DNA of 45,707 bases from a virus. The first letter of the stretch is position 1; each line of letters starts with the position of its first letter. The position numbers and the translations under genes were made by a program. The notes below the pieces were generated by a model. It did not search any database. It worked only from the letters and a program-made list of their open reading frames with translations, and had not been told where the DNA came from. This document shows positions 5,442-45,707 of the stretch, piece after piece. Where the stretch lies: the IMG/VR virus record IMGVR_UViG_3300010430_000100, positions 1-45,707 of that record; one strand, 5' to 3'.

Positions 5442-5473
5442 GCAGCACCGCCGCCCCTTATCGGTGGTGCTGC
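5442..5473 (+). terminator. Strong hairpin, possible terminator
   Basis: A 12-bp stem (5442-5453 with 5462-5473, one G-U pair) and an 8-base loop, followed by CUUCUUUC rather than a clean U run. It lies between the PEQ-repeat gene and the Spo11-like cassette. It may terminate or attenuate the upstream transcript or protect an mRNA end. Confidence 0.5.
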
Positions 5474-5500: not shown

Positions 5501-6409
5501 ATGAGTTTAGAGAAATTCAGAGACTATAAATTCCAAGACAAAACGATTGCGCTGATCAACAAGGCCAGCGACATCATTGCTGAGTACCAGTCAAACGGCT
5601 ATTCGCTCACGTTGCGCCAGCTTTATTATCAATTCGTTTCGCGCGATCTAATCCCGAACAATATGCGCGAGTACAAGAAGCTTGGAGAAACAATCAACAA
5701 GGCGCGGCTGGCTGGCCTAATTGACTGGAACGCCATTGAGGACCGAACACGGAACTTGAAAGGTGTCAGCACTTGGGACGGGCCGGAGGGCGTAATATCA
5801 AGCGCTTGCTACAGTTACAAAGAGGATTTGTGGCGAAACCAATCATTCGCGCCGGAGGTCTGGATCGAGAAGGACGCGCTTGTCGGCGTGATCGAGCGCG
5901 TTTGCAATCGCTGGCAAGTGCCTTTCTTCGCTTGCCGGGGGTACACGTCCCAATCAGAGCAGTATCGCGCTGGAAAGCGCTTAAAATCGGCTGAGTATGG
6001 CGGCAAGCAGCCTATCATCCTTCACCTTGGCGACCACGATCCGAGCGGCATCGACATGACGCGCGACAACCGGGAGCGCCTAGATATGTTTTCAGGCTTT
6101 TCGGCTGAAGTTCGACGCTTGGCGTTGAACATGGACCAGATCGATCAATACTCACCACCACCCAACCCGGCAAAGATCACAGACAGCCGTTTCCAAGGGT
6201 ACGTTGACAAGCACGGCAAATCCAGTTGGGAACTTGACGCGCTTGATCCTTCGATTATCGCCGAGTTGGTCGAGGATAACGTCAAGAAGCTGATCGACTT
6301 CAACCAGTGGGAAATCGACAAGCAAGCCGAGAGCGACAATAAAGATATGCTTTATAAAGTCTCGGATCGTTGGGACGAGGTTTGCGAATTTTTGGAAGGC
6401 ACGGAGTAA
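5501..6409 (+). CDS. Stand-alone Spo11/TopoVI-A-like (Mini-A type) protein
   Basis: A 302-residue protein with the two catalytic parts of the Spo11/topoisomerase VI A fold. A winged-helix segment carries TLRQLYYQF (Arg39, Tyr42, Tyr43), where family members have the DNA-cleaving tyrosine. A TOPRIM domain has Glu123 in WIEKDA and the DxD pair Asp178/Asp180 in LGDHDPSGID. No ATPase B subunit is encoded in the window. That matches the Mini-A group of stand-alone TopoVI-A homologues described from mobile elements, whose function is unsettled. The stop overlaps the next start (TAATG), and three genes form one coupled cassette closed by a terminator at 7347. A role in DNA cleavage during recombination or host-DNA attack is inference. 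AGAGGCAAG lies before the ATG. Confidence 0.8.
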   Translation: MSLEKFRDYKFQDKTIALINKASDIIAEYQSNGYSLTLRQLYYQFVSRDLIPNNMREYKKLGETINKARLAGLIDWNAIEDRTRNLKGVSTWDGPEGVISSACYSYKEDLWRNQSFAPEVWIEKDALVGVIERVCNRWQVPFFACRGYTSQSEQYRAGKRLKSAEYGGKQPIILHLGDHDPSGIDMTRDNRERLDMFSGFSAEVRRLALNMDQIDQYSPPPNPAKITDSRFQGYVDKHGKSSWELDALDPSIIAELVEDNVKKLIDFNQWEIDKQAESDNKDMLYKVSDRWDEVCEFLEGTE

Positions 6410-6798
6410 TGACTAAAATCGTTTCAGTGGCGCTATTCAAGCGCGATGGTGCGCTAACATTTAGACCGCCACGCAAAGAAAGATCATCTGACCAGTACAA
6501 CGCCCGAAAATCGGCTATGCGCTACTGGAACGGCAAAACTCAAGCGCCTGACAAGCTGGTCAAGGTGATCATTATCACTAAGGTCGAGCATGGCACGGTC
6601 TATTTCGCGGAGCGATCCCCGCAGGTTGGCAAAATCCGCCCTTGGCTTGAAGATAAAATCCCTCTTGAGGACGCGGCAAATCAGCCTCACATACTGGCTT
6701 GCTTGCACGAGATGGATATCGATCTGAATAAGCGCCCGGTCACTGCCATGCCGGACACGCTGGAAATCAACGGCATTATTTATAGGAGAGAAATCTAA
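6409..6798 (+). CDS. Unknown protein coupled to Spo11-like gene
   Basis: A 129-residue protein. The start at 6409 is chosen because it forms a TAATG overlap with the stop of the Spo11-like gene. The N-terminal 60 residues are basic (several Arg/Lys pairs) and may contact DNA. The remainder is mixed alpha/beta. No family is recognised. Strict coupling to the gene before and after suggests the three products work together. Confidence 0.65.
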   Translation: MTKIVSVALFKRDGALTFRPPRKERSSDQYNARKSAMRYWNGKTQAPDKLVKVIIITKVEHGTVYFAERSPQVGKIRPWLEDKIPLEDAANQPHILACLHEMDIDLNKRPVTAMPDTLEINGIIYRREI

Positions 6799-7331
6799 TG
6801 AACGCGCGGAGATACTACAAGGTATATGGCGAGACTAAAGCCAAGTGCGAAGAAGTCCTAGATGACTACAACCGAATGATTGACGCGGTTCACAGCTGGG
6901 CCATGTCGCATGGCGGCAAGGGTTATTGGCGCGAAGGGAGCCGGGTTTCAGGTATCACGATTGACGCGACCAAGAAAAAGCCCGAAGGCTGGTTGATCAA
7001 TAAGCAATATCACTCACCAGACACGGCCTATTTGAAGCCGGACAAGCGAACCAAGGTGGGCAAGAGATTGGAGACTGAAATCTCAGGGCTGCCGAACCCG
7101 TTCAGATCGAACCTAGTGGGTGAGGCTTTTGGAGTTGGCGCGTTCGTTATATCAACGCAAGCATCAAAATGCATATGCTGGCTGCACATGGAGCGGTGCG
7201 AGGGCGAAATAATTTTGTCAGTGCCGATTGCAAATGATAGCTTCGGAGATGAAGGAGTTACCAAGTTCAAGCCTGACCATGCCGAAGAAATAACATACGG
7301 CGAATATATGATCATGACAGGTCAATCCTGA
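6798..7331 (+). CDS. Unknown protein, third of Spo11-like cassette
   Basis: A 177-residue protein starting in a TAATG overlap with the previous gene. It is basic in the first 90 residues, with aromatic-rich patches (GKGYWREG, KCICWLHMERC), and acidic towards the C terminus. The spaced Cys/His residues near 143-153 could bind a metal. No family is recognised. It is the last gene before the plus-strand terminator at 7347. Confidence 0.65.
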   Translation: MNARRYYKVYGETKAKCEEVLDDYNRMIDAVHSWAMSHGGKGYWREGSRVSGITIDATKKKPEGWLINKQYHSPDTAYLKPDKRTKVGKRLETEISGLPNPFRSNLVGEAFGVGAFVISTQASKCICWLHMERCEGEIILSVPIANDSFGDEGVTKFKPDHAEEITYGEYMIMTGQS

Positions 7332-7346
7332 TACCTCCCAAACTGG

Positions 7347-7378
7347 CCCGGCAATCTTAGATTGTCGGGTATTTTTTT
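7347..7378 (+). terminator. Rho-independent terminator of left block
   Basis: The stem CCCGGCAATC / GATTGTCGGG (7347-7356 with 7360-7369, one G-U pair) has a 3-base loop and is followed by TATTTTTTTAT. It ends the rightward early transcript 15 bases after the last stop codon. Confidence 0.85.
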
Positions 7379-23881: not shown

Positions 23882-26800
23882 CTACTTTCCGGTTTTGCCA
23901 ATTAGAGCTTCGATTGGCGAAGTTTCTTCACCTTCTAATTCTCGCGCCCCAAAGTCAACAATCCTGTTGATTGCAGTCGAAGGAATACCGAAGGCCGTTC
24001 CAGTGCTGTTGATGATAGCTTTAACATCAGTCTTATTGAAGCCCTCAGTATCAGCAATTGCGTCAAATATCGACTTGCCGCCCTTGGCTAAGTCGCCAGT
24101 AATGCCGCCATAAGCGCCGCCACTGCTAAACCCTTGCGCCGATGATAGCGCATCTCGCGCGAACGGGATCGTGCTAAGCGCCGAGAATATAGTCTCGGAG
24201 GCCAAGAACTTCGCCCACTCGGTTGCGTCATCTTCTTCCTCATCATCGCCGGGCAAGCGGCCTTTAATAGCCGCATACACGACAGCCTCAAGCGTAAACA
24301 GCATAGTCATATCAACAGACCAAGAAAGTGCCTCTAGCGCAGCTTGCTTGGAAACAACGCCCTCTTTGTCGATCACGCCTTTTGTTTTCATGGTCCGCTC
24401 ATATGCAACGTTGAACTTGGCGAACATGTACGAGCCAAGCGTCGTGAACAGACGAACAAAATCAGACTGCCGGGTTTTGTTGCTCAGAGTGCCGCGCTCG
24501 ATCCCGGCGCGATCCGAGAATATTCCAGACGCTTGTGAACGCTTCACAATTGCATCAGCGTGCGCAACGGCCTTGACTTCGCTATTGCCGAACATATCCA
24601 AGCCCTGACGATACCCGGCAAGCCAAGTTGGAGCATCGACAAGGTGGAACTGCGTTAGGGTCATAGGCAGGAACCCAACACGGCCAATGAAATCGCGCTT
24701 GAAATCAGCGAAGCGACCAGAGACAGGGCCAGACACCGGATCATTCATAAAGTCGTAAATGTCTTTGTTGAACGTTGTCGAGCGTTCGCGCATGAATGAC
24801 GACTTGGCTTTAATGTCGTCAATCGCACCCGGGCGCAGACGGTCCATAACGCCAAGCGTGAAATACTTCTTGCCGACGACGACCATTGATTGAGGCAAGC
24901 CCGTGATTTGCACGAGAACCGTTGACATGTTGAAAGCTAGTTTGGCGGCAGTGAAGTTTGATTTTGCCGCACGAGCAACCTTGCTCATAATGTCGCCAGA
25001 ACGCTGTTCGCCTTCCGCCGTGTCTTTCAGCCATAGCTCCAATTCTTCAAAGTCAGCTTGTTTGCCGTAATCGATAAACGTGTCTTTGACGCGCTGGTCT
25101 TGAAGCACTCGCCAAGAGTTAGACACTGCCTCGCCCATCTCGATATCGTAAACAACATCTTGAATGTGTCGGTGCAAGACAGAGATATCCAACTCGACAG
25201 GGCGACCAGAAGATTGCGCACGCTCCTTTGTGTGACCGTTCTTGGTCTGCGCCTTACCAAATCTTCCGGACATCATCGCTTCAGCGATATCTTGTTGCTG
25301 GTCCTCTCGAACCAACGCAGACAAGCGCGGATCATACTTCAAAGGATAATAGCCACCCTTGAGCTTTTTCCCGGCAATAGTGACCGGGGTTGCTTCGACC
25401 TTATCAGGCGCGGTGCCAGTCAGACGCTTCTCACGTTCAGCGATTTGAGGCCAGTATGAGTTGACAAAATCCCAAACGGACTGAATGAACTTCGCGTCAG
25501 TTTCATCAAGTAGACCTAACACATGAGCGACTTGCGCCTCAGTGAATGAGCCTTTGACGTTCTTGTCAGTTAGACGCTGGAAATTGCCCTCGTTACCAGT
25601 GTTCAGCGCGATTGACAGCAATTCAAACTTTGAGAAACTACCGCCAAGCTCAGGCACATACTGGCGTTCGCTTGTCATCTTGCGCAGCACTTCTTTATCG
25701 CCGTACACCTCATAGAGCTTCTCAAGACCCTCAGCCGCATTTTGACGCGCAACGATAAGACGATCTTGCGCTGCATCAATAGGAGCTTTGATTGCATCGT
25801 AAACTGGGCCGAAGTCTTTGAACCCGTCAATCTCGCGAAGTAATGTTCCAGCATTCAGAACGGAGTTGAAGAAACCGCGAACAGATTTTCTTGCTTCTTC
25901 ACCAGCATCTTTAACGCGAGAAGGTGACTTCTTCTTAACGTTCTGTTCGAATTGTTGAACAATACTATCAACAGTCTCGGACATCTTGCGTTTATTCTTC
26001 GCGTCTACTAGATCATCCCAACGCAAAGCCACATGCTCGATGTTCTTCAAACTATCAATAACACCCCGGAAGTGATCAATATTAAGGGTTTTGTAAGGCT
26101 GGCGCTTACTATCGGCCAAGACCTTTTCTGGAATTGATAGTTCATTTTCGCGCCCGGCGGCTTTCATACCCTCGACAAAATCAGCCAGAGTTGCCCGGTT
26201 GCGCTCGTCTTTGCGTGACAGCTTGCGGAAGTCGTACCGTTCAAGAATATCATCAACCGCATCCAAATAGTTGATTGACGCGCCGCCCTCGCGAGAAGCC
26301 CCGGCGATCCGCTTGCGCTTATTCTTGTTGTTCAGGCGATCAATAAACCGCTCACCCTTTTCAACTTCATTGGCGATTTTCCGGCTTTCCATGAATAGAG
26401 CATGATTGATCAATTGGCGGCGCTTAGCCTCAATCAGCCGATCTGCTACCTCATTGCGCCGACCAGTGCGAACATTGGCAACGTCGATCTGTTGCGCAGC
26501 CTTGTCAGGCGAAACCTCACCACGCGCCGCAGCCCTTGCGTCATTGGCGATTTTACGCCGCGCCTGCTGCATCCAAACGCTATCACGGCCCAAAGTGCGC
26601 GAAAGCCCTTGAGCCTCGTCAGCGGCCTTCCTTTCAGCAGCAAGGAACCGATTTGCGTTCATTGCATCGCGAATGTTCATCTTGCCCAAAGTCTGCCGGG
26701 CAATCTCTTTCGCTTCTTTAACGCTCAAGCCGCGATCTACCTCAGCAACATCGGCAACGGCCTTCAACTCGGCAGCGATCCACTGGCCTCGCTTGTCGTT

Positions 26801-29800
26801 GTGGACAGCATCAAGTGCCTCGCGCTGGATTGACCCATCATTCAGCGGGTCGCCGTGGCGATCACGCATAATCTTGTCAGTCTCAGCTTCGATTGCATCT
26901 TCGCGCCGTGGAGCAGCTTCAAGCGCTTGCAGCATTTCATCTGCACTTGAATACCCAAACCACCCGGCAGCGATATCAGGATCGACCCCATCTTTTTTGG
27001 TGTAGAGCGTGAACTTGCCGCGCGGTAGTGTCTTGGTAATGCCAGCGCCATATCGAGCAACTAAATCTTGGCGCGAGATACGCAGATCAAGGGGAATGCC
27101 CTCAGGCTGGTCTTCGCCAAGCCAGCGGCGATTGCCCATCCATTCAAACGCGCGGTAAACTTTATAGCCGTTTATTTCCTTTTCGACATCGGCGCGGATT
27201 TTGGCACGTTCTTCTTTGAACCACTTTTCTTTCTCGCGCTGCACCGGAGCCATGATTTCGCGCAGCAAGCGCGACTTGGCTTCATTCTCGGCACGTTCGC
27301 GCGAACGCAAGTAAGATTGATAGTCCGCCTCGCTCATTCCCATAGCCTCAGCGCTTAGGAATATCGGCGCAGTCTCATTGACCTCATTTCGCGCCGCCTC
27401 AATCTCAGCATCACTTGCAAGCATCCGGTCAAACACAGCGGAAACCTCAGGCGAAACGTTGACGTTAAGCCCGGTGACTTTCTGATAGATCGAGATAAGC
27501 CAAGCCCGGAAACGCTCGAACGCGCTTTTCAACTCAGCCGAAGGCGCTTTACCGTCCATCAGGTAAGCTTCGAACCCACGCGCGAATTGCTCCTGCATCC
27601 CAACATCAATCGCAGCATCCTTGGCAGCATCGCCAGTTGTGCCGTTTTCCAGCGCCGCCAAAACATCGGCCTTGGTGACAGAAGCGCCGCCAGCCTTTGA
27701 CGCATCACGCGCCACGTCAGCCGCATTATCGCGCCACCAGCCCTTGAGTGTTTCGAACTCAGTCGCAGCATTTGCCTCGCCACGGTCAGCCATATCTTGA
27801 AGAACGGTCAAGAAGTAGTGACCGCTTTCATGGAGCATGGTTGACAGGTCAGCCCGTTCGAACAGGTTGATTACAGTTTCGCCCTGCCCAATCCCGGCAG
27901 CAGGGAATTGGATCGATCCTCGCGCACCATCTTTGTCTTGGAACAAGAAACGCTTATCAGCCGGGTCAAATGTCCCTCGGTTTTCCACAGATTTGATATT
28001 TGATGCATATTCATCAAACACATGAACGTGCGCGGTGTCCGGGTCCATATCCATGCCGGGGAATTGACGATCAGCATTTTTCAGAATGATTGCATCAAAG
28101 CCTAATTCCTTGATCACCTGACCGACAATGTGGAAACCAACGGCCCGACCATCATCACCCTCGGCATACATCACCGCGTCACTGCCGCGCAAAGCCTCGT
28201 CGATCTGGTCAGAAGTCGCGCCTTCGGTGAAAAATCCCTCAACCGCAGACATCAAGTCGCCACGGTCAATATCAAATTCGTCAGAAACCTTTTCGATAGC
28301 ATCAATCAGCTTGTTGCCGCCGTTCTCGTTTTCAGCTTCCCATCGTGCCTCGTCGATTTCATCTTCATAATCGTCGCGGTTCGCCTCGACTTCTTCAACA
28401 GTGATATCGTTGTTTTCCGCTACCAATTCCATTGCGGCGCGATCCATCGCCTCAAAGTCAACGAACTCGATATATTGCCGATCACTGCCGCCGACCACAA
28501 AAGGCCGCTCAGTGCGGACGAACATTTCCAGCACCTTCTCAGTGCCACCCTTCAATTCAAGCGCAGCTAGGGCGCGGCCAATCTCAAATGCCGCATCATC
28601 ATCATCCATGACCGCGACATCAGACGAAACAATGCGGAGGCTTCTAGTTGATCGATAAAGAGACCGCACAACAGCATCGCGCCCCTTTTTCTCAAACTGG
28701 TCAAGCAATCGATCTTGAAGCTCCTCAGCGCGTTGCTCAATGCGCACAGTCAAGTCTGGACCTTCGCCGCTATAATTGCCCTCAGCATCAGCCTCGCTTG
28801 AAGTGAAGTAATTTACCGCGCCGAAGTGGCCTTCTTTATTGCCGCGCTTTGATGCATCAAACAATTCAAAATCGTGCGTTGTGCCGTGAAAAGCCCTCAT
28901 GACGAATGGGCCTTGACCGGAAAAATCCTGATAGTTGATTTCATCAGGATCAAGCACTTCATCAGTGCCAGCCCATTTCTTGAATGCGTCAGAACCAACA
29001 GGCGCAGCTTGCCCGTATTGTGCGCCTTGCTGGTCAGCCCGGATTGCTGCAAGGATAGTCTCATTGTCGTCAGAGATATCGGAGCCAATGCTGGCCAAAT
29101 ATTCTTCAATGCTATCAAGCGCCTCGTCAGTTTCAGGTTCGATATCCCCGGCAGCATGGACAGTCTCACCACGTGCCTCGCGATCAATCGCGTCCAATAG
29201 CGCCGCACGAATATCTGGAACCTGACCGCCAGTCTCAAGCGCGTTTTTGTACTCTTGCACGATAGGATCATCAGCCAGATACCCGGCTTCAATCGCAGCT
29301 TGCGCCACATCATCAAGACCAAACTTCTTGCCGGAGCCGCCGCCGAACATTGATTTGACGTTATCCATGCCAGACCGAGCCAGCTTGAGCGTTTTCTTGC
29401 CCTTGCCGCGCTTCACAGTATCGACGTTACGCGCACGTAATTCGCCGCCTTCGTCATTGATCCCGCCATAGCTATCGATAAACTCAAACAGCGAAGGGCC
29501 GCGCTTTTCAGCCGCGCTAGTCTTGCGCATCCGGGCTTCTTCAATCGTACGCAGAACGACATCGGTGTCACGCGATTGCATACCCTCAGGCAATGCGCCG
29601 CGAACTTCTGGCAGTGGATAGCGCTGCAAAAATTCTTCCGTTGTCATACCGGAGCGTTCAGCCATGACGCGGTAAAACGCCGGGTAAAGCATCGCCTCGC
29701 TTGTGGCAACGTCAGTCCCACGGCCAGCCACGCGAAGGCGCGAAACCATGTCGTCATAAATCTTTTGCTCAAGACCGCGCAAGCTATCTTGCTCGATACG

Positions 29801-31546
29801 CATTTCTTCTGCGATTTCGTACGCCTCTTGCACGGCCTCTTGTGCCTTGGCGTTGAACTCGGCAGCTTCGGCGCTGGTCATTTGATCAGGATCAAAACGC
29901 ATGTGATCAATCAAGAATGCATCATGCTCAGACCCGGCAATAGAAGCGGCATAGGTCGCAGTTGGGATTTGGAAGTCAGCGCCAGACTGCAAAGCCAAAT
30001 TCAAATCATCTCGCGACAGCCCGTCGATTTCATCAACCACGGCGAAAGGATCAGCGCCGACATCTTGGAAGTATTGAACAAATTTATCAGCCGGAATGTA
30101 GATGTTTTCCACAGGCCCGTCTTTTGTTGCCTTGGTCACAAAATCGCGGAAGGCATCAGGCATACGTTCCCGCGTCTTGGAGTTGGTAGCAGCGCCAGAC
30201 AATTCTTCAAACAGAGCTTTGCGGTTCGCAGCGTCTTGCGCATCCCGGCGCTTAGTCATGACCTTATCAGCGCTCACCGCGCCGACTTCAATCGGAGCCG
30301 TGACAAATTCAGCCAGACCTTCAATCAAAACCTCAGAGATATTGAACTCTTGCCGGGCAGCGATCTGCGCCGCAGCTTCACCACCAGAACCCATTGCAGC
30401 TTGCAAGACTGACTGCATGGCGGCATTGGCAACCGGGTTCTTGGATAGCACTTCACCAGCCACACCGCCAGAAAGCCCGTCCATCAAGCCAATAATCAGA
30501 CCGCGCGTCATACCGCGACCAACCGCACCGCGCATCAATTCTTCATTCTGCACAGCCTCAAGTGCGCCCTCAGGCGTTGAGATATCAATCCCATGCTCAG
30601 AAAAATACTCAGCCGGAGAAGTGCCAGCCTCGACAGCGGCAGAGCCACCACCCATGAAAATAGCACCCGCGCCCGGCGATCTGGTTGCAGCGGTCACAAC
30701 CGCAGTTGCAGCCAGTTGAGGAACGCTTTCAGCGGCGGTTTCGGCAAGGAACGCAGTAAACCCGGCAGGGTCGCTGGCCACGATTTTAAAGAAACTCGTT
30801 AAGTCCTGACCGATATCGCCAGTCGTTTCTTGCGCGATATAAGATTGCTTGAACGCCTCGCCAGCCGGAGACATTGGGATTGCAGCGATTTCATTGGCAA
30901 TTCGACCAACATTTTGTTGGAAGTATTGCGCCGATTGCTCAGTATCAGCACCGCGCAGCTTGTCCAAGTTCGCGCCGATCCAGCGAGAGCCAGCCATAAA
31001 CAAATGATCAGGACCGGGGATCATTGCCTTACCGACAGCCTCACCTTGCTCATTGCGATAGAAAGTCATTTCGTCAGCAAGGATATCGCCAAAGTTCAAT
31101 TCGCGGTCACGCGCACGTCGAGCCGTGTCAGCCGCCAAAAACTGATTGAGCGATTGAGGAACGCGCTTCACGCCGCGAGAAACAGCATTGCCGCCAGACG
31201 CAAACACAGTTTCGAACGCAGATAGACCTTCAAGATCATCACGCGACACAGCAGCGTTTTCTGGAACCGTGAGCCACTCAGCCAGCTTCGGCGCGGAGCT
31301 TAGAATTGTTGAAGCTTTCTCGCGCTCAATCGCAGCTTGGAAAACATTTCGATACTCGGCAACCATCGGCAGTGGTGGCGGCATCTGGCCAGTAGTCTTG
31401 CCGTACTCTTTAGCCAGAGACATATCCCCGGCAATCTCGTCAGGCTTTTGCGTTTCAGAACCCATAACAACTTGAGCGGCCCCAACATTACGTTGCTGCC
31501 GCTCGCGGTTAACTCTTGCCAAATATTCGGAAATGCTTTCAGACAT
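23882..31546 (-). CDS. Giant polyvalent virion protein with ART and zincin motifs
   Basis: A 2554-residue protein in the place of the large T7 internal (ejected) proteins. Regions in order: an N-terminal helical part; hydrophobic segments near 245-400; a domain about 430-540 of the type seen in phage polyvalent proteins; an ADP-ribosyltransferase-like region about 885-1185 beginning AFHGTTHDF (His887) with GAVNYFTSS and ending in VFDEYASNIKSV; a metalloprotease-like HESGH at 1239-1243 followed by EQFARGFEAYL...APS; long coiled-coil regions about 1360-2100; and a C-terminal part with a hydrophobic segment. It probably enters the cell with the DNA, helps span the envelope, and may modify host proteins. 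The enzymatic roles rest on motif likeness. Confidence 0.8.
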   Translation of the reverse strand: MSESISEYLARVNRERQQRNVGAAQVVMGSETQKPDEIAGDMSLAKEYGKTTGQMPPPLPMVAEYRNVFQAAIEREKASTILSSAPKLAEWLTVPENAAVSRDDLEGLSAFETVFASGGNAVSRGVKRVPQSLNQFLAADTARRARDRELNFGDILADEMTFYRNEQGEAVGKAMIPGPDHLFMAGSRWIGANLDKLRGADTEQSAQYFQQNVGRIANEIAAIPMSPAGEAFKQSYIAQETTGDIGQDLTSFFKIVASDPAGFTAFLAETAAESVPQLAATAVVTAATRSPGAGAIFMGGGSAAVEAGTSPAEYFSEHGIDISTPEGALEAVQNEELMRGAVGRGMTRGLIIGLMDGLSGGVAGEVLSKNPVANAAMQSVLQAAMGSGGEAAAQIAARQEFNISEVLIEGLAEFVTAPIEVGAVSADKVMTKRRDAQDAANRKALFEELSGAATNSKTRERMPDAFRDFVTKATKDGPVENIYIPADKFVQYFQDVGADPFAVVDEIDGLSRDDLNLALQSGADFQIPTATYAASIAGSEHDAFLIDHMRFDPDQMTSAEAAEFNAKAQEAVQEAYEIAEEMRIEQDSLRGLEQKIYDDMVSRLRVAGRGTDVATSEAMLYPAFYRVMAERSGMTTEEFLQRYPLPEVRGALPEGMQSRDTDVVLRTIEEARMRKTSAAEKRGPSLFEFIDSYGGINDEGGELRARNVDTVKRGKGKKTLKLARSGMDNVKSMFGGGSGKKFGLDDVAQAAIEAGYLADDPIVQEYKNALETGGQVPDIRAALLDAIDREARGETVHAAGDIEPETDEALDSIEEYLASIGSDISDDNETILAAIRADQQGAQYGQAAPVGSDAFKKWAGTDEVLDPDEINYQDFSGQGPFVMRAFHGTTHDFELFDASKRGNKEGHFGAVNYFTSSEADAEGNYSGEGPDLTVRIEQRAEELQDRLLDQFEKKGRDAVVRSLYRSTRSLRIVSSDVAVMDDDDAAFEIGRALAALELKGGTEKVLEMFVRTERPFVVGGSDRQYIEFVDFEAMDRAAMELVAENNDITVEEVEANRDDYEDEIDEARWEAENENGGNKLIDAIEKVSDEFDIDRGDLMSAVEGFFTEGATSDQIDEALRGSDAVMYAEGDDGRAVGFHIVGQVIKELGFDAIILKNADRQFPGMDMDPDTAHVHVFDEYASNIKSVENRGTFDPADKRFLFQDKDGARGSIQFPAAGIGQGETVINLFERADLSTMLHESGHYFLTVLQDMADRGEANAATEFETLKGWWRDNAADVARDASKAGGASVTKADVLAALENGTTGDAAKDAAIDVGMQEQFARGFEAYLMDGKAPSAELKSAFERFRAWLISIYQKVTGLNVNVSPEVSAVFDRMLASDAEIEAARNEVNETAPIFLSAEAMGMSEADYQSYLRSRERAENEAKSRLLREIMAPVQREKEKWFKEERAKIRADVEKEINGYKVYRAFEWMGNRRWLGEDQPEGIPLDLRISRQDLVARYGAGITKTLPRGKFTLYTKKDGVDPDIAAGWFGYSSADEMLQALEAAPRREDAIEAETDKIMRDRHGDPLNDGSIQREALDAVHNDKRGQWIAAELKAVADVAEVDRGLSVKEAKEIARQTLGKMNIRDAMNANRFLAAERKAADEAQGLSRTLGRDSVWMQQARRKIANDARAAARGEVSPDKAAQQIDVANVRTGRRNEVADRLIEAKRRQLINHALFMESRKIANEVEKGERFIDRLNNKNKRKRIAGASREGGASINYLDAVDDILERYDFRKLSRKDERNRATLADFVEGMKAAGRENELSIPEKVLADSKRQPYKTLNIDHFRGVIDSLKNIEHVALRWDDLVDAKNKRKMSETVDSIVQQFEQNVKKKSPSRVKDAGEEARKSVRGFFNSVLNAGTLLREIDGFKDFGPVYDAIKAPIDAAQDRLIVARQNAAEGLEKLYEVYGDKEVLRKMTSERQYVPELGGSFSKFELLSIALNTGNEGNFQRLTDKNVKGSFTEAQVAHVLGLLDETDAKFIQSVWDFVNSYWPQIAEREKRLTGTAPDKVEATPVTIAGKKLKGGYYPLKYDPRLSALVREDQQQDIAEAMMSGRFGKAQTKNGHTKERAQSSGRPVELDISVLHRHIQDVVYDIEMGEAVSNSWRVLQDQRVKDTFIDYGKQADFEELELWLKDTAEGEQRSGDIMSKVARAAKSNFTAAKLAFNMSTVLVQITGLPQSMVVVGKKYFTLGVMDRLRPGAIDDIKAKSSFMRERSTTFNKDIYDFMNDPVSGPVSGRFADFKRDFIGRVGFLPMTLTQFHLVDAPTWLAGYRQGLDMFGNSEVKAVAHADAIVKRSQASGIFSDRAGIERGTLSNKTRQSDFVRLFTTLGSYMFAKFNVAYERTMKTKGVIDKEGVVSKQAALEALSWSVDMTMLFTLEAVVYAAIKGRLPGDDEEEDDATEWAKFLASETIFSALSTIPFARDALSSAQGFSSGGAYGGITGDLAKGGKSIFDAIADTEGFNKTDVKAIINSTGTAFGIPSTAINRIVDFGARELEGEETSPIEALIGKTGK

Positions 31547-33811
31547 CTATTCTCTTTGCTCCATCAGGAAACGCTCGTAAACTTCTTCAACTTGAGCGGC
31601 GCTAGGCTTGTGTCCAAGTTGGGCCTCAAGAGTTTGTTCAATCTCAAGACGATCAACTATAGGTATTGTGTCGTATTTAACATTAAGTTCAACATCAAAG
31701 CCACCGCCAATGTCACCAATTTTTCCAGTTTCAAAGAAAAATCCTTCTTTCTGGTCACGACCGCCTATGAAATTCGCCGGACCTTTGGTCACAATCGGCA
31801 ACAACATGCGATTGACCATAGATTGAATTTCGTATTGCGTTGGCGCTTTACCGTTCTGTTCTTTGAAAGAAGCCATTTCATCGGCCAGCGCAGATTGGAA
31901 TTGTGATACCTGCCGGGCAATTTCTTCGCGCTCACGGCCTTTTTTCCCAGTCGTGGTAAGACCAACGGCCTCAAGCTGGTCACTGGCTTGTGACCATGCC
32001 GAAGTAAGCTGCAAGCCTTCTTCTCGCGCCTTGCGCTCGTCTTTTAGGATAGAAGTTTGAGCATCAGACATCTTCTGAAAGTCGCCCTTGCCCAGTCTAT
32101 CCCGGTAATCGTTAAGATCGAGGCTTGCGAACTGTTCAGGCTCCATTGCTGCAAACCGCTTCATATCGTACAGAAACACGTCATCAGTCTTAACTTCACG
32201 ACCTGACGCGACAGTCTCCATATAACCCCATGCAGACGACACAGCGGACATTCCAGCCGCTTGCCGGATATCCATCGGCACATCATCAGGCGAATATCCC
32301 TGATCGATGTATGACCACAATTCGGCCTTGGCCGATTTTTGGCGTTGCTCGATTGCCTTCGATTGAGCGGCCATAGCTGAGTTGATCCGTTTACGCGCAA
32401 GTTCTCGCACGGCAGGGTCTTTAATCTCAGCAAGCCGAGCCTCAATTTGATCGTATGATGGAAACCCAAGACGCGCCCCGGCAGTGTTGCTGGTAGCCAC
32501 GGCAGTTGTGCCAACAGGCGCACCGCCGCGAGTGCCAGCATCTTCAATGTGCCAAGGCTCCCAAGACATAGGAAATTTGAGGCCGTACGCAGCCGCGTTG
32601 TCATGAACCCACTTAATAACCTCTTTTGGCGCGTGTTTCAGTGATCGGCCATTGTATGAGATATCAGCCGCGTCACCGTGGTTGTGGTTCGACTTGCCCG
32701 GAGGCGCTACCCATTTCCGCGCCGCTTCTGGCGATCCGTATTTCTTGAGAGCGTTTTCCCATAGCTGGCGCTGGCGCTCAACAGAACGGAAGCCTGAATA
32801 GACACCCAACCCATCTCGGATATGAGGAGGTGCGTCTTGAAACATCGCAGACAGGTTGCCAGCGAATGTGTCATCAAGCCCTTCGATATGTTCAGCGCCA
32901 TGACCAGACGCAAGCCGAGACATTAGAAACTTCTTGGCAGGTGCGCGAACAGCAGGAGCATCGTCTTTGTGATCATGGTCAGGCGTGGAGACTTCATCAC
33001 GACCACCAGACAAAATGTCAGCCGCGAACGATGTAGCCTCAGCCTCTTGAGCAATCGGCTCGATTGCCTTCTTCAATGCGAATTGATCCGCGCCGGACAA
33101 CTCGCCAGCCATTTCGTTGATGTAATCACGCGCAGCAAGAGGATCGTCTTGCGCGATACGCAAGGCAACGTTGCGGTGAACACCAGAAACAAACTGGCCA
33201 ATCGCGTCTTGTTTCTTCTCAGGAGACCAGCCGTTAAGCGCCGCTTGCTGATTGAGTTCAGCCAAGCCAGCCGCAATGTTATCCTTGACCAAATCTTGAT
33301 TGCTGTAGTTCACAAGCGCGTCATTGGCGTATGAGTTCATTCGAGCAGTTGCCGCCTCATTGACCCAAGTCTTGCGTTGCCCGGCAGTGTGGACGATGGA
33401 TTGCTGCAAAGTGCGCTCAAGCCGCGCTTGCGTCATCTGGTTGTACTTGGCATTCGCGCCCGGTGTCAGACCCTTTGACAATTCCCGGCGCTTTTCTTCT
33501 GCCGACTTTTCGAACGCAGCGCGTGCATCAATGGCATTCTTACCTTGCAGCGTGAGGAAACCGCCCTCACCATACATTTGTTCGCGCGTCCAATTTGCAT
33601 ATTCCACATCAGCATCTTTTGCCGCAGTGGTATCTTCAAGCGCCTTTAGTTCTGCAAATGCGTTTGAGGCTTGTTGCAAGCCGCGTGACAGCCCTTGCAA
33701 CCCTCGACCTATACCAGCGCCCATTTGCTCAGCGTTGGCTCGTACAGTCATGTTTGACTGCAATTCAGGACGAATTGCAACGTTTGGAGTGTATTCAGGA
33801 ACCTTAACCAT
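31547..33811 (-). CDS. Internal virion protein with M15 peptidase domain
   Basis: A 754-residue protein. The N-terminal 250 residues are helical and Ala/Gln-rich. A peptidase M15 (D,D- or L,D-peptidase) domain lies at about 290-430: YSGFRSVERQ, then SNHNHGDAAD fitting S-x-H-x2-G-x-A-x-D (His376, Asp383) and EPWHIE (His421), giving all three zinc ligands. The rest is helical. It likely cuts peptide bonds in peptidoglycan during DNA entry, as T7 gp16 does with a different enzyme. Its stop codon is directly followed by the start of the giant protein gene. Confidence 0.87.
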   Translation of the reverse strand: MVKVPEYTPNVAIRPELQSNMTVRANAEQMGAGIGRGLQGLSRGLQQASNAFAELKALEDTTAAKDADVEYANWTREQMYGEGGFLTLQGKNAIDARAAFEKSAEEKRRELSKGLTPGANAKYNQMTQARLERTLQQSIVHTAGQRKTWVNEAATARMNSYANDALVNYSNQDLVKDNIAAGLAELNQQAALNGWSPEKKQDAIGQFVSGVHRNVALRIAQDDPLAARDYINEMAGELSGADQFALKKAIEPIAQEAEATSFAADILSGGRDEVSTPDHDHKDDAPAVRAPAKKFLMSRLASGHGAEHIEGLDDTFAGNLSAMFQDAPPHIRDGLGVYSGFRSVERQRQLWENALKKYGSPEAARKWVAPPGKSNHNHGDAADISYNGRSLKHAPKEVIKWVHDNAAAYGLKFPMSWEPWHIEDAGTRGGAPVGTTAVATSNTAGARLGFPSYDQIEARLAEIKDPAVRELARKRINSAMAAQSKAIEQRQKSAKAELWSYIDQGYSPDDVPMDIRQAAGMSAVSSAWGYMETVASGREVKTDDVFLYDMKRFAAMEPEQFASLDLNDYRDRLGKGDFQKMSDAQTSILKDERKAREEGLQLTSAWSQASDQLEAVGLTTTGKKGREREEIARQVSQFQSALADEMASFKEQNGKAPTQYEIQSMVNRMLLPIVTKGPANFIGGRDQKEGFFFETGKIGDIGGGFDVELNVKYDTIPIVDRLEIEQTLEAQLGHKPSAAQVEEVYERFLMEQRE

Positions 33812-45049: not shown

Positions 45050-45591
45050 TACTCGCCCTCAGTATTCTTGAGCGCACGAGCAAGGCGATCACCAAGCCCC
45101 TCAATGCCAGTGTGATTGACGTTCTCTTGGAACGCTTGCACGTCGATGTGCTTACCAATCGCGTTCAGGCGGTCCATGCGGTTGCTCAGGCGCACCTTCT
45201 TCAACTGGCCAATTATTTGCTTTTCTTCGCCGTAACCGTCCCAAATTTCAGCAACGTCAACGCCCTGCACAAGTCCTTGTCTCCAAATCTTAGGCCATTC
45301 ATGTATTGGCTTGAGTGTCATATCCTCATTGTAAATATCCGCAATATCAGCCTCAGCTTCATCATGTAATCGCGTAAGTAACCATGCAGCATCTACTTTG
45401 GTTTTTCTTATGCGTTCGGCCTTCAATTCTATGATGCGCTCCTGAATATGTGGTTTTCTAAGGAGTTCTGCCGCGATTGATGCAGCGCTTTTCTCGCTAT
45501 ATTCGGCGCGAATAGCTGCCTTAGTGCCATTGAAATCTTTAATGTACTCAATGCAGAATAATTCCTGCTTATCGCTCCGCTTCTCAGCCAT
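45049..45591 (-). CDS. terS: Terminase small subunit
   Basis: A 180-residue protein of the Terminase_2 family: KQELFCIEYIKDFNGTKAAIRAEYSEKSAASIAAELLRKPHIQERI is the N-terminal DNA-binding HTH, followed by an oligomerisation helix region (about 80-160) and an acidic C terminus. It recognises the packaging site and loads DNA on TerL. GAGAGG precedes the ATG. The start codon lies inside the terminal repeat. Confidence 0.93.
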   Translation of the reverse strand: MAEKRSDKQELFCIEYIKDFNGTKAAIRAEYSEKSAASIAAELLRKPHIQERIIELKAERIRKTKVDAAWLLTRLHDEAEADIADIYNEDMTLKPIHEWPKIWRQGLVQGVDVAEIWDGYGEEKQIIGQLKKVRLSNRMDRLNAIGKHIDVQAFQENVNHTGIEGLGDRLARALKNTEGE

Positions 45592-45707
45592 GATTTTTGC
45601 CTCTCATTTTCCCGGCAATTGAGCCAGTGAGTTAATCGGTTGAATTTGCCCTACGATATATATCAATTTGCGCCAAAACAAGCACCAGACCAATTACGAA
45701 CCAATTA
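45585..45707. repeat. Terminal direct repeat, right copy
   Basis: Identical to 1-123. It contains the TerS start codon and leader. No clear promoter for the late genes is seen inside it, so the promoter may lie further upstream, i.e. in 124-400 of the left end if the molecule is circular or concatemeric. Confidence 0.9.

Follow-up and report, generated by a model that had tools for sequence, protein, structure and literature searches.

The question raised by this locus is whether a topoisomerase VI-A-like or Spo11-like protein, encoded in front of two closely coupled genes, is part of a new three-component DNA-cleaving system, or whether it is a known protein standing among genes that have little to do with it. 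The window, that is, the whole stretch of DNA that was analysed, is a virus record of 45,707 nt whose ends are an exact direct repeat of 123 bp (1-123 and 45585-45707). The terminal repeat makes it probable that the genome is complete in this record, unless the repeat is an assembler overlap. The virus infects bacteria and is a podovirus, with a T7-type portal (head-tail adaptor), a major head protein and tail tubular proteins recognised by PHROG, and it also encodes a primase, helicases, exonuclease VIII and RecT. On the minus strand, an ORF of 2554 aa (23882-31546) adjoins a 754-aa endolysin/tape-measure-like protein (31547-33811).

The layout given in the preliminary description was found as described: three ORFs, a hairpin upstream and a terminator downstream, with two 1-base TAATG overlaps joining the first gene to gene B and gene B to gene C (Table 1). 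The 76-nt stretch holding the hairpin folds at -28.3 kcal/mol (z -5.5), which is beyond the shuffled sequences. Genes B and C probably share a transcript with the lead gene. Overlaps of one base are the commonest type in this phage, seen at 9 of 42 same-strand junctions counted in a hand-picked set of genes of the window, and the TAATG linkage is therefore no marker of a functional unit here.

Table 1. Features of the locus, and positions of activator genes in related loci.
Feature	Position	Strand	Remarks
Hairpin, terminator-like with a poor T tail	5442..5473	+	12-bp stem, 8-nt loop, 5' of the Mini-A gene
Mini-A (Topo VI-A/Spo11-like), 302 aa	5501..6409	+	phrog_6247, tblastn, predicted fold, invariant residues Tyr43, Glu123, Asp178, Asp180
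Gene B, 129 aa, small family in related podoviruses	6409..6798	+	Homologues; confident predicted fold without PDB match
Gene C, 177 aa, near-orphan	6798..7331	+	Weak phrog_2260 match; sub-threshold DUF5420
Intrinsic terminator with T run, closing the rightward unit	7346..7370	+	Beyond shuffles
PrtN-type activator (PF11112), related loci	L086 8797-9063; also L001, L087, L090-L094

The lead protein matches PHROG 6247 ('DNA topoisomerase') over its whole length (residues 3-298, 7e-112), and in tblastn it is 44.3% identical, over 94% of the query, to a protein of Pseudomonas phage NP1 which a review names as an instance of Mini-A (PMC7614492). Phages and archaeal viruses carry Mini-A as a truncated homologue of Top6A that stands alone, and its function is described as unknown in reviews (PMC7614492, PMC8084294, PMC8185306). 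Homology to a published Mini-A thus extends over most of the protein, and from its sequence the lead gene is Mini-A, a new copy of a known but functionally uncharacterised family. The family is widespread in phages: matches were obtained in 76 annotated phage records, with 40-56% identity among the matches listed, and in 577 stretches of viral contigs. When the six frames of the window were scanned, a TP6A_N (Pfam) match was seen at the lead gene only (E 0.0018, residues 16-45), under the Pfam cut-off.

The predicted structure points in the same direction. The AlphaFold model of Mini-A has a pLDDT of 83.6, and in Foldseek the only PDB matches under 1e-3 were Topo VI-A of M. mazei, at low TM-scores (0.30). 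In VIA the model superposes on Topo VI-A (1d3y) with a Z of 9.0 and 3.5 Å over 139 residues, a level shared by JetD and a C. glutamicum nuclease, and designed Rossmann proteins tie with Topo VI-A near Z 9; Spo11 gave a Z of 6.9. The alignment to Topo VI-A covers only the TOPRIM half of Mini-A (about 109-265), and for this half the model supports a Topo VI-A-like fold, so that a truncated form of the fold is predicted on a virus. The N-terminal half is assigned more tentatively, by the weak TP6A_N match together with its motif. When the PDB was searched by sequence with a profile of 33 Mini-As, no chain was retrieved up to E 10, and the kinship to Topo VI-A must therefore be remote. A search of the viral fold library with the same model gave one match under 1e-3, a protein of 152 aa.

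The preliminary description had located the Tyr and TOPRIM residues correctly. All 82 Mini-As compared share Arg39, Tyr43, Glu123, Lys124, Asp178, His179, Asp180 and Gly183, and thus none of the catalytic residues Tyr43, Glu123, Asp178 and Asp180 has been lost in the homologues, a loss that the description had named as a ground for refutation. The earlier description had left the choice between Tyr42 and Tyr43; since Tyr42 is replaced by Phe in 6 of the 82 and Tyr43 is invariant, Tyr43 is the likely nucleophile. It had also claimed that no Topo VI B subunit is encoded, and this agrees with our scan of the six frames of the window, where neither the Topo-VIb transducer (PF09239) nor a GHKL ATPase (PF02518) gave a match and the controls did. 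The A-subunit-like protein is thus not accompanied by a GHKL ATPase B subunit such as topoisomerase VI has.

If genes B and C replaced the missing subunit, as regulatory or DNA-targeting partners of Mini-A, they would be expected to travel with it. We collected 76 distinct Mini-A loci (75 viral and one prophage), and the ORF downstream of Mini-A was obtained from 69. These ORFs were nearly all different in sequence. No family of neighbours within about 5 kb of Mini-A occurred in more than 8 loci, and no PHROG family matched more than two of the 130 immediate neighbours. The neighbours that could be named were mostly genes of DNA metabolism, such as exonuclease VIII, helicase, RecT, primase and SSB. 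The flanks also differ among eight annotated phages. Pam3 has a threonine dehydratase and hypothetical proteins there; in NP1 the gene lies among those for a Sak4-like protein, ligase, ThyX and Cas4 exonuclease; and RcSimone-Hastad has endonuclease V, with Cas4 exonuclease and DNA polymerase as well. Thymidylate synthase is found in both BP12C and BabaJaga, LWP01 has an excisionase, RHph_TM26 has hypothetical proteins, and in Commonplace an endolysin lies two genes further along. A gene for thymidylate synthase was seen beside or near Mini-A in three phage groups, those of NP1 (L107), BP12C (L110) and BabaJaga (L111). The idea that Mini-A keeps fixed neighbours is thus contradicted in nearly all of the 69 viral loci and in the eight annotated phages, which is the outcome by which the preliminary description had said its claim would be refuted. 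Nor was any partner, of the kind found in the Spo11 core complex, conserved with Mini-A across the loci.

Gene B gives a similar picture from the other side. Its relatives were found in 11 viral contig loci, in one Phyllobacterium prophage and in four more genomes of that order. A C-terminal motif, INGxxYxR, is strongly conserved in the family, and the predicted fold (pLDDT 86.6) had no PDB match under 1e-3. Nine records with gene B also share the portal protein of the window at 60-64% identity, and Mini-A is present in two of them, G003 (the L014 record) and G007 (Phyllobacterium). In the other seven it was found nowhere in the record, these being 46.6-48.8 kb, as long as the window, with completeness not given. 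Since B is kept in the relatives and Mini-A is mostly absent, B is a gene of this phage group, and Mini-A is one that its members may have or lack. In a tree, the Mini-A of the window stands apart from those of L014 and of the Phyllobacterium prophage (L086), which favours independent acquisition by this phage and these relatives, although a single clade is not rejected by the AU test (p 0.186). Most of the podovirus relatives carry a gene for a PrtN-type pyocin activator (PF11112) within about 2 kb 3' of B, and none was found in the window.

Gene C is still more isolated. It has a weak match to phrog_2260 (5e-4, residues 44-175), no homologue in the viral contigs and only weak partial matches in phages, and it is absent from all the fetched gene B loci of the relatives. 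Two weak genome matches to C were put down to chance, since they lie inside ABC-transporter-like and SecA-type-like genes.

In favour of a three-gene system are the tight overlaps, the enclosure of one unit between hairpin and terminator, and the position of B, which follows Mini-A directly both here and in L014 and is one gene further on in L086. The 115-aa ORF that lies between the two genes in L086 was considered as a VRR-NUC nuclease, a reading that was rejected as it had no Pfam match. Set against this are the absence of Mini-A from most of the B-carrying relatives, the absence of C from the B loci, the mostly unrelated genes 3' of Mini-A in about 69 other loci and the frequency of 1-base overlaps in this phage. 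Genes B and C do not travel with Mini-A, and the proposed new system with B and C as its partners is very improbable. They are probably independent accessory genes of the phage group, although, given the unit that they share with Mini-A, a functional link to it at this locus is conceivable.

We therefore regard it as likely that the locus as a whole is explained by an optional Mini-A in the early region of a podovirus, cleaving DNA by its Tyr and TOPRIM residues, amid unrelated accessory genes. The protein would form a homodimer, with one Tyr43 for the attack on each strand, and Glu123, Asp178 and Asp180 would hold Mg2+. The product would be a double-strand break with the protein presumably on the 5' ends. 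Because the ATPase is absent, and from what is known of the family, ATP-driven strand passage is not expected; Mini-A may instead carry out ATP-independent cleavage and religation during replication or recombination of the phage DNA.

It is also conceivable that Mini-A is a dedicated Spo11-like break-maker which starts phage recombination, with lasting cuts on which the exonuclease and the annealing protein of the phage would then act. The phage encodes both an exonuclease VIII-type nuclease and RecT, Mini-A of NP1 lies among genes for Sak4, ligase and Cas4 exonuclease, there is no ATPase subunit and the catalytic set is conserved. Nevertheless, RecT, the annealing protein that was looked for, is present in all nine relatives with or without Mini-A and in 2 of 36 other Mini-A records, and it thus does not track Mini-A. 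The sequence alone does not separate a religating topoisomerase from a Spo11-like break-maker, and we find the latter possible but rather doubtful. The fuller version, in which ATP-independent programmed breaks drive recombination of the phage genome and B or C might help locally, seems to us somewhat less probable again. If true, viruses would have their own counterpart to the formation of breaks in meiosis.

An attack by Mini-A on the host chromosome or on rival elements is quite improbable. Such a role would fit a candidate DNA-cutting enzyme encoded in a phage early region, but at E 1 PADLOC matched none of Mini-A, B and C, there was no sign of a partner for self-protection, and Mini-A is not conserved among the close relatives. 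As related podoviruses exist with and without Mini-A, its role could be approached through phages that are otherwise alike.

Compared with known systems, Mini-A of this phage shares with Topo VI-A and Spo11 the predicted TOPRIM fold and the set of Tyr, Glu and DxD residues, but it differs in having no PDB match by sequence and neither a B subunit nor a meiotic-type partner. The TOPRIM half superposes about equally well on the JetD/MksG-type nucleases of SMC (Wadjet-type) systems (Z 8.6 and 9.0); unlike in these, there are no SMC partners among the annotated genes, and the PADLOC result sets all three proteins of the locus apart from them. The stand-alone Top6A homologue was already known (PMC7614492), and what is new here is another copy of it, and not a new three-part system. 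It differs from the published Mini-As at the sequence level only, and its neighbours are different, as they are for other Mini-As. In its size, its family (phrog_6247), its Tyr and TOPRIM residues and its lack of a B subunit, it is the same as a published Mini-A such as that of NP1.
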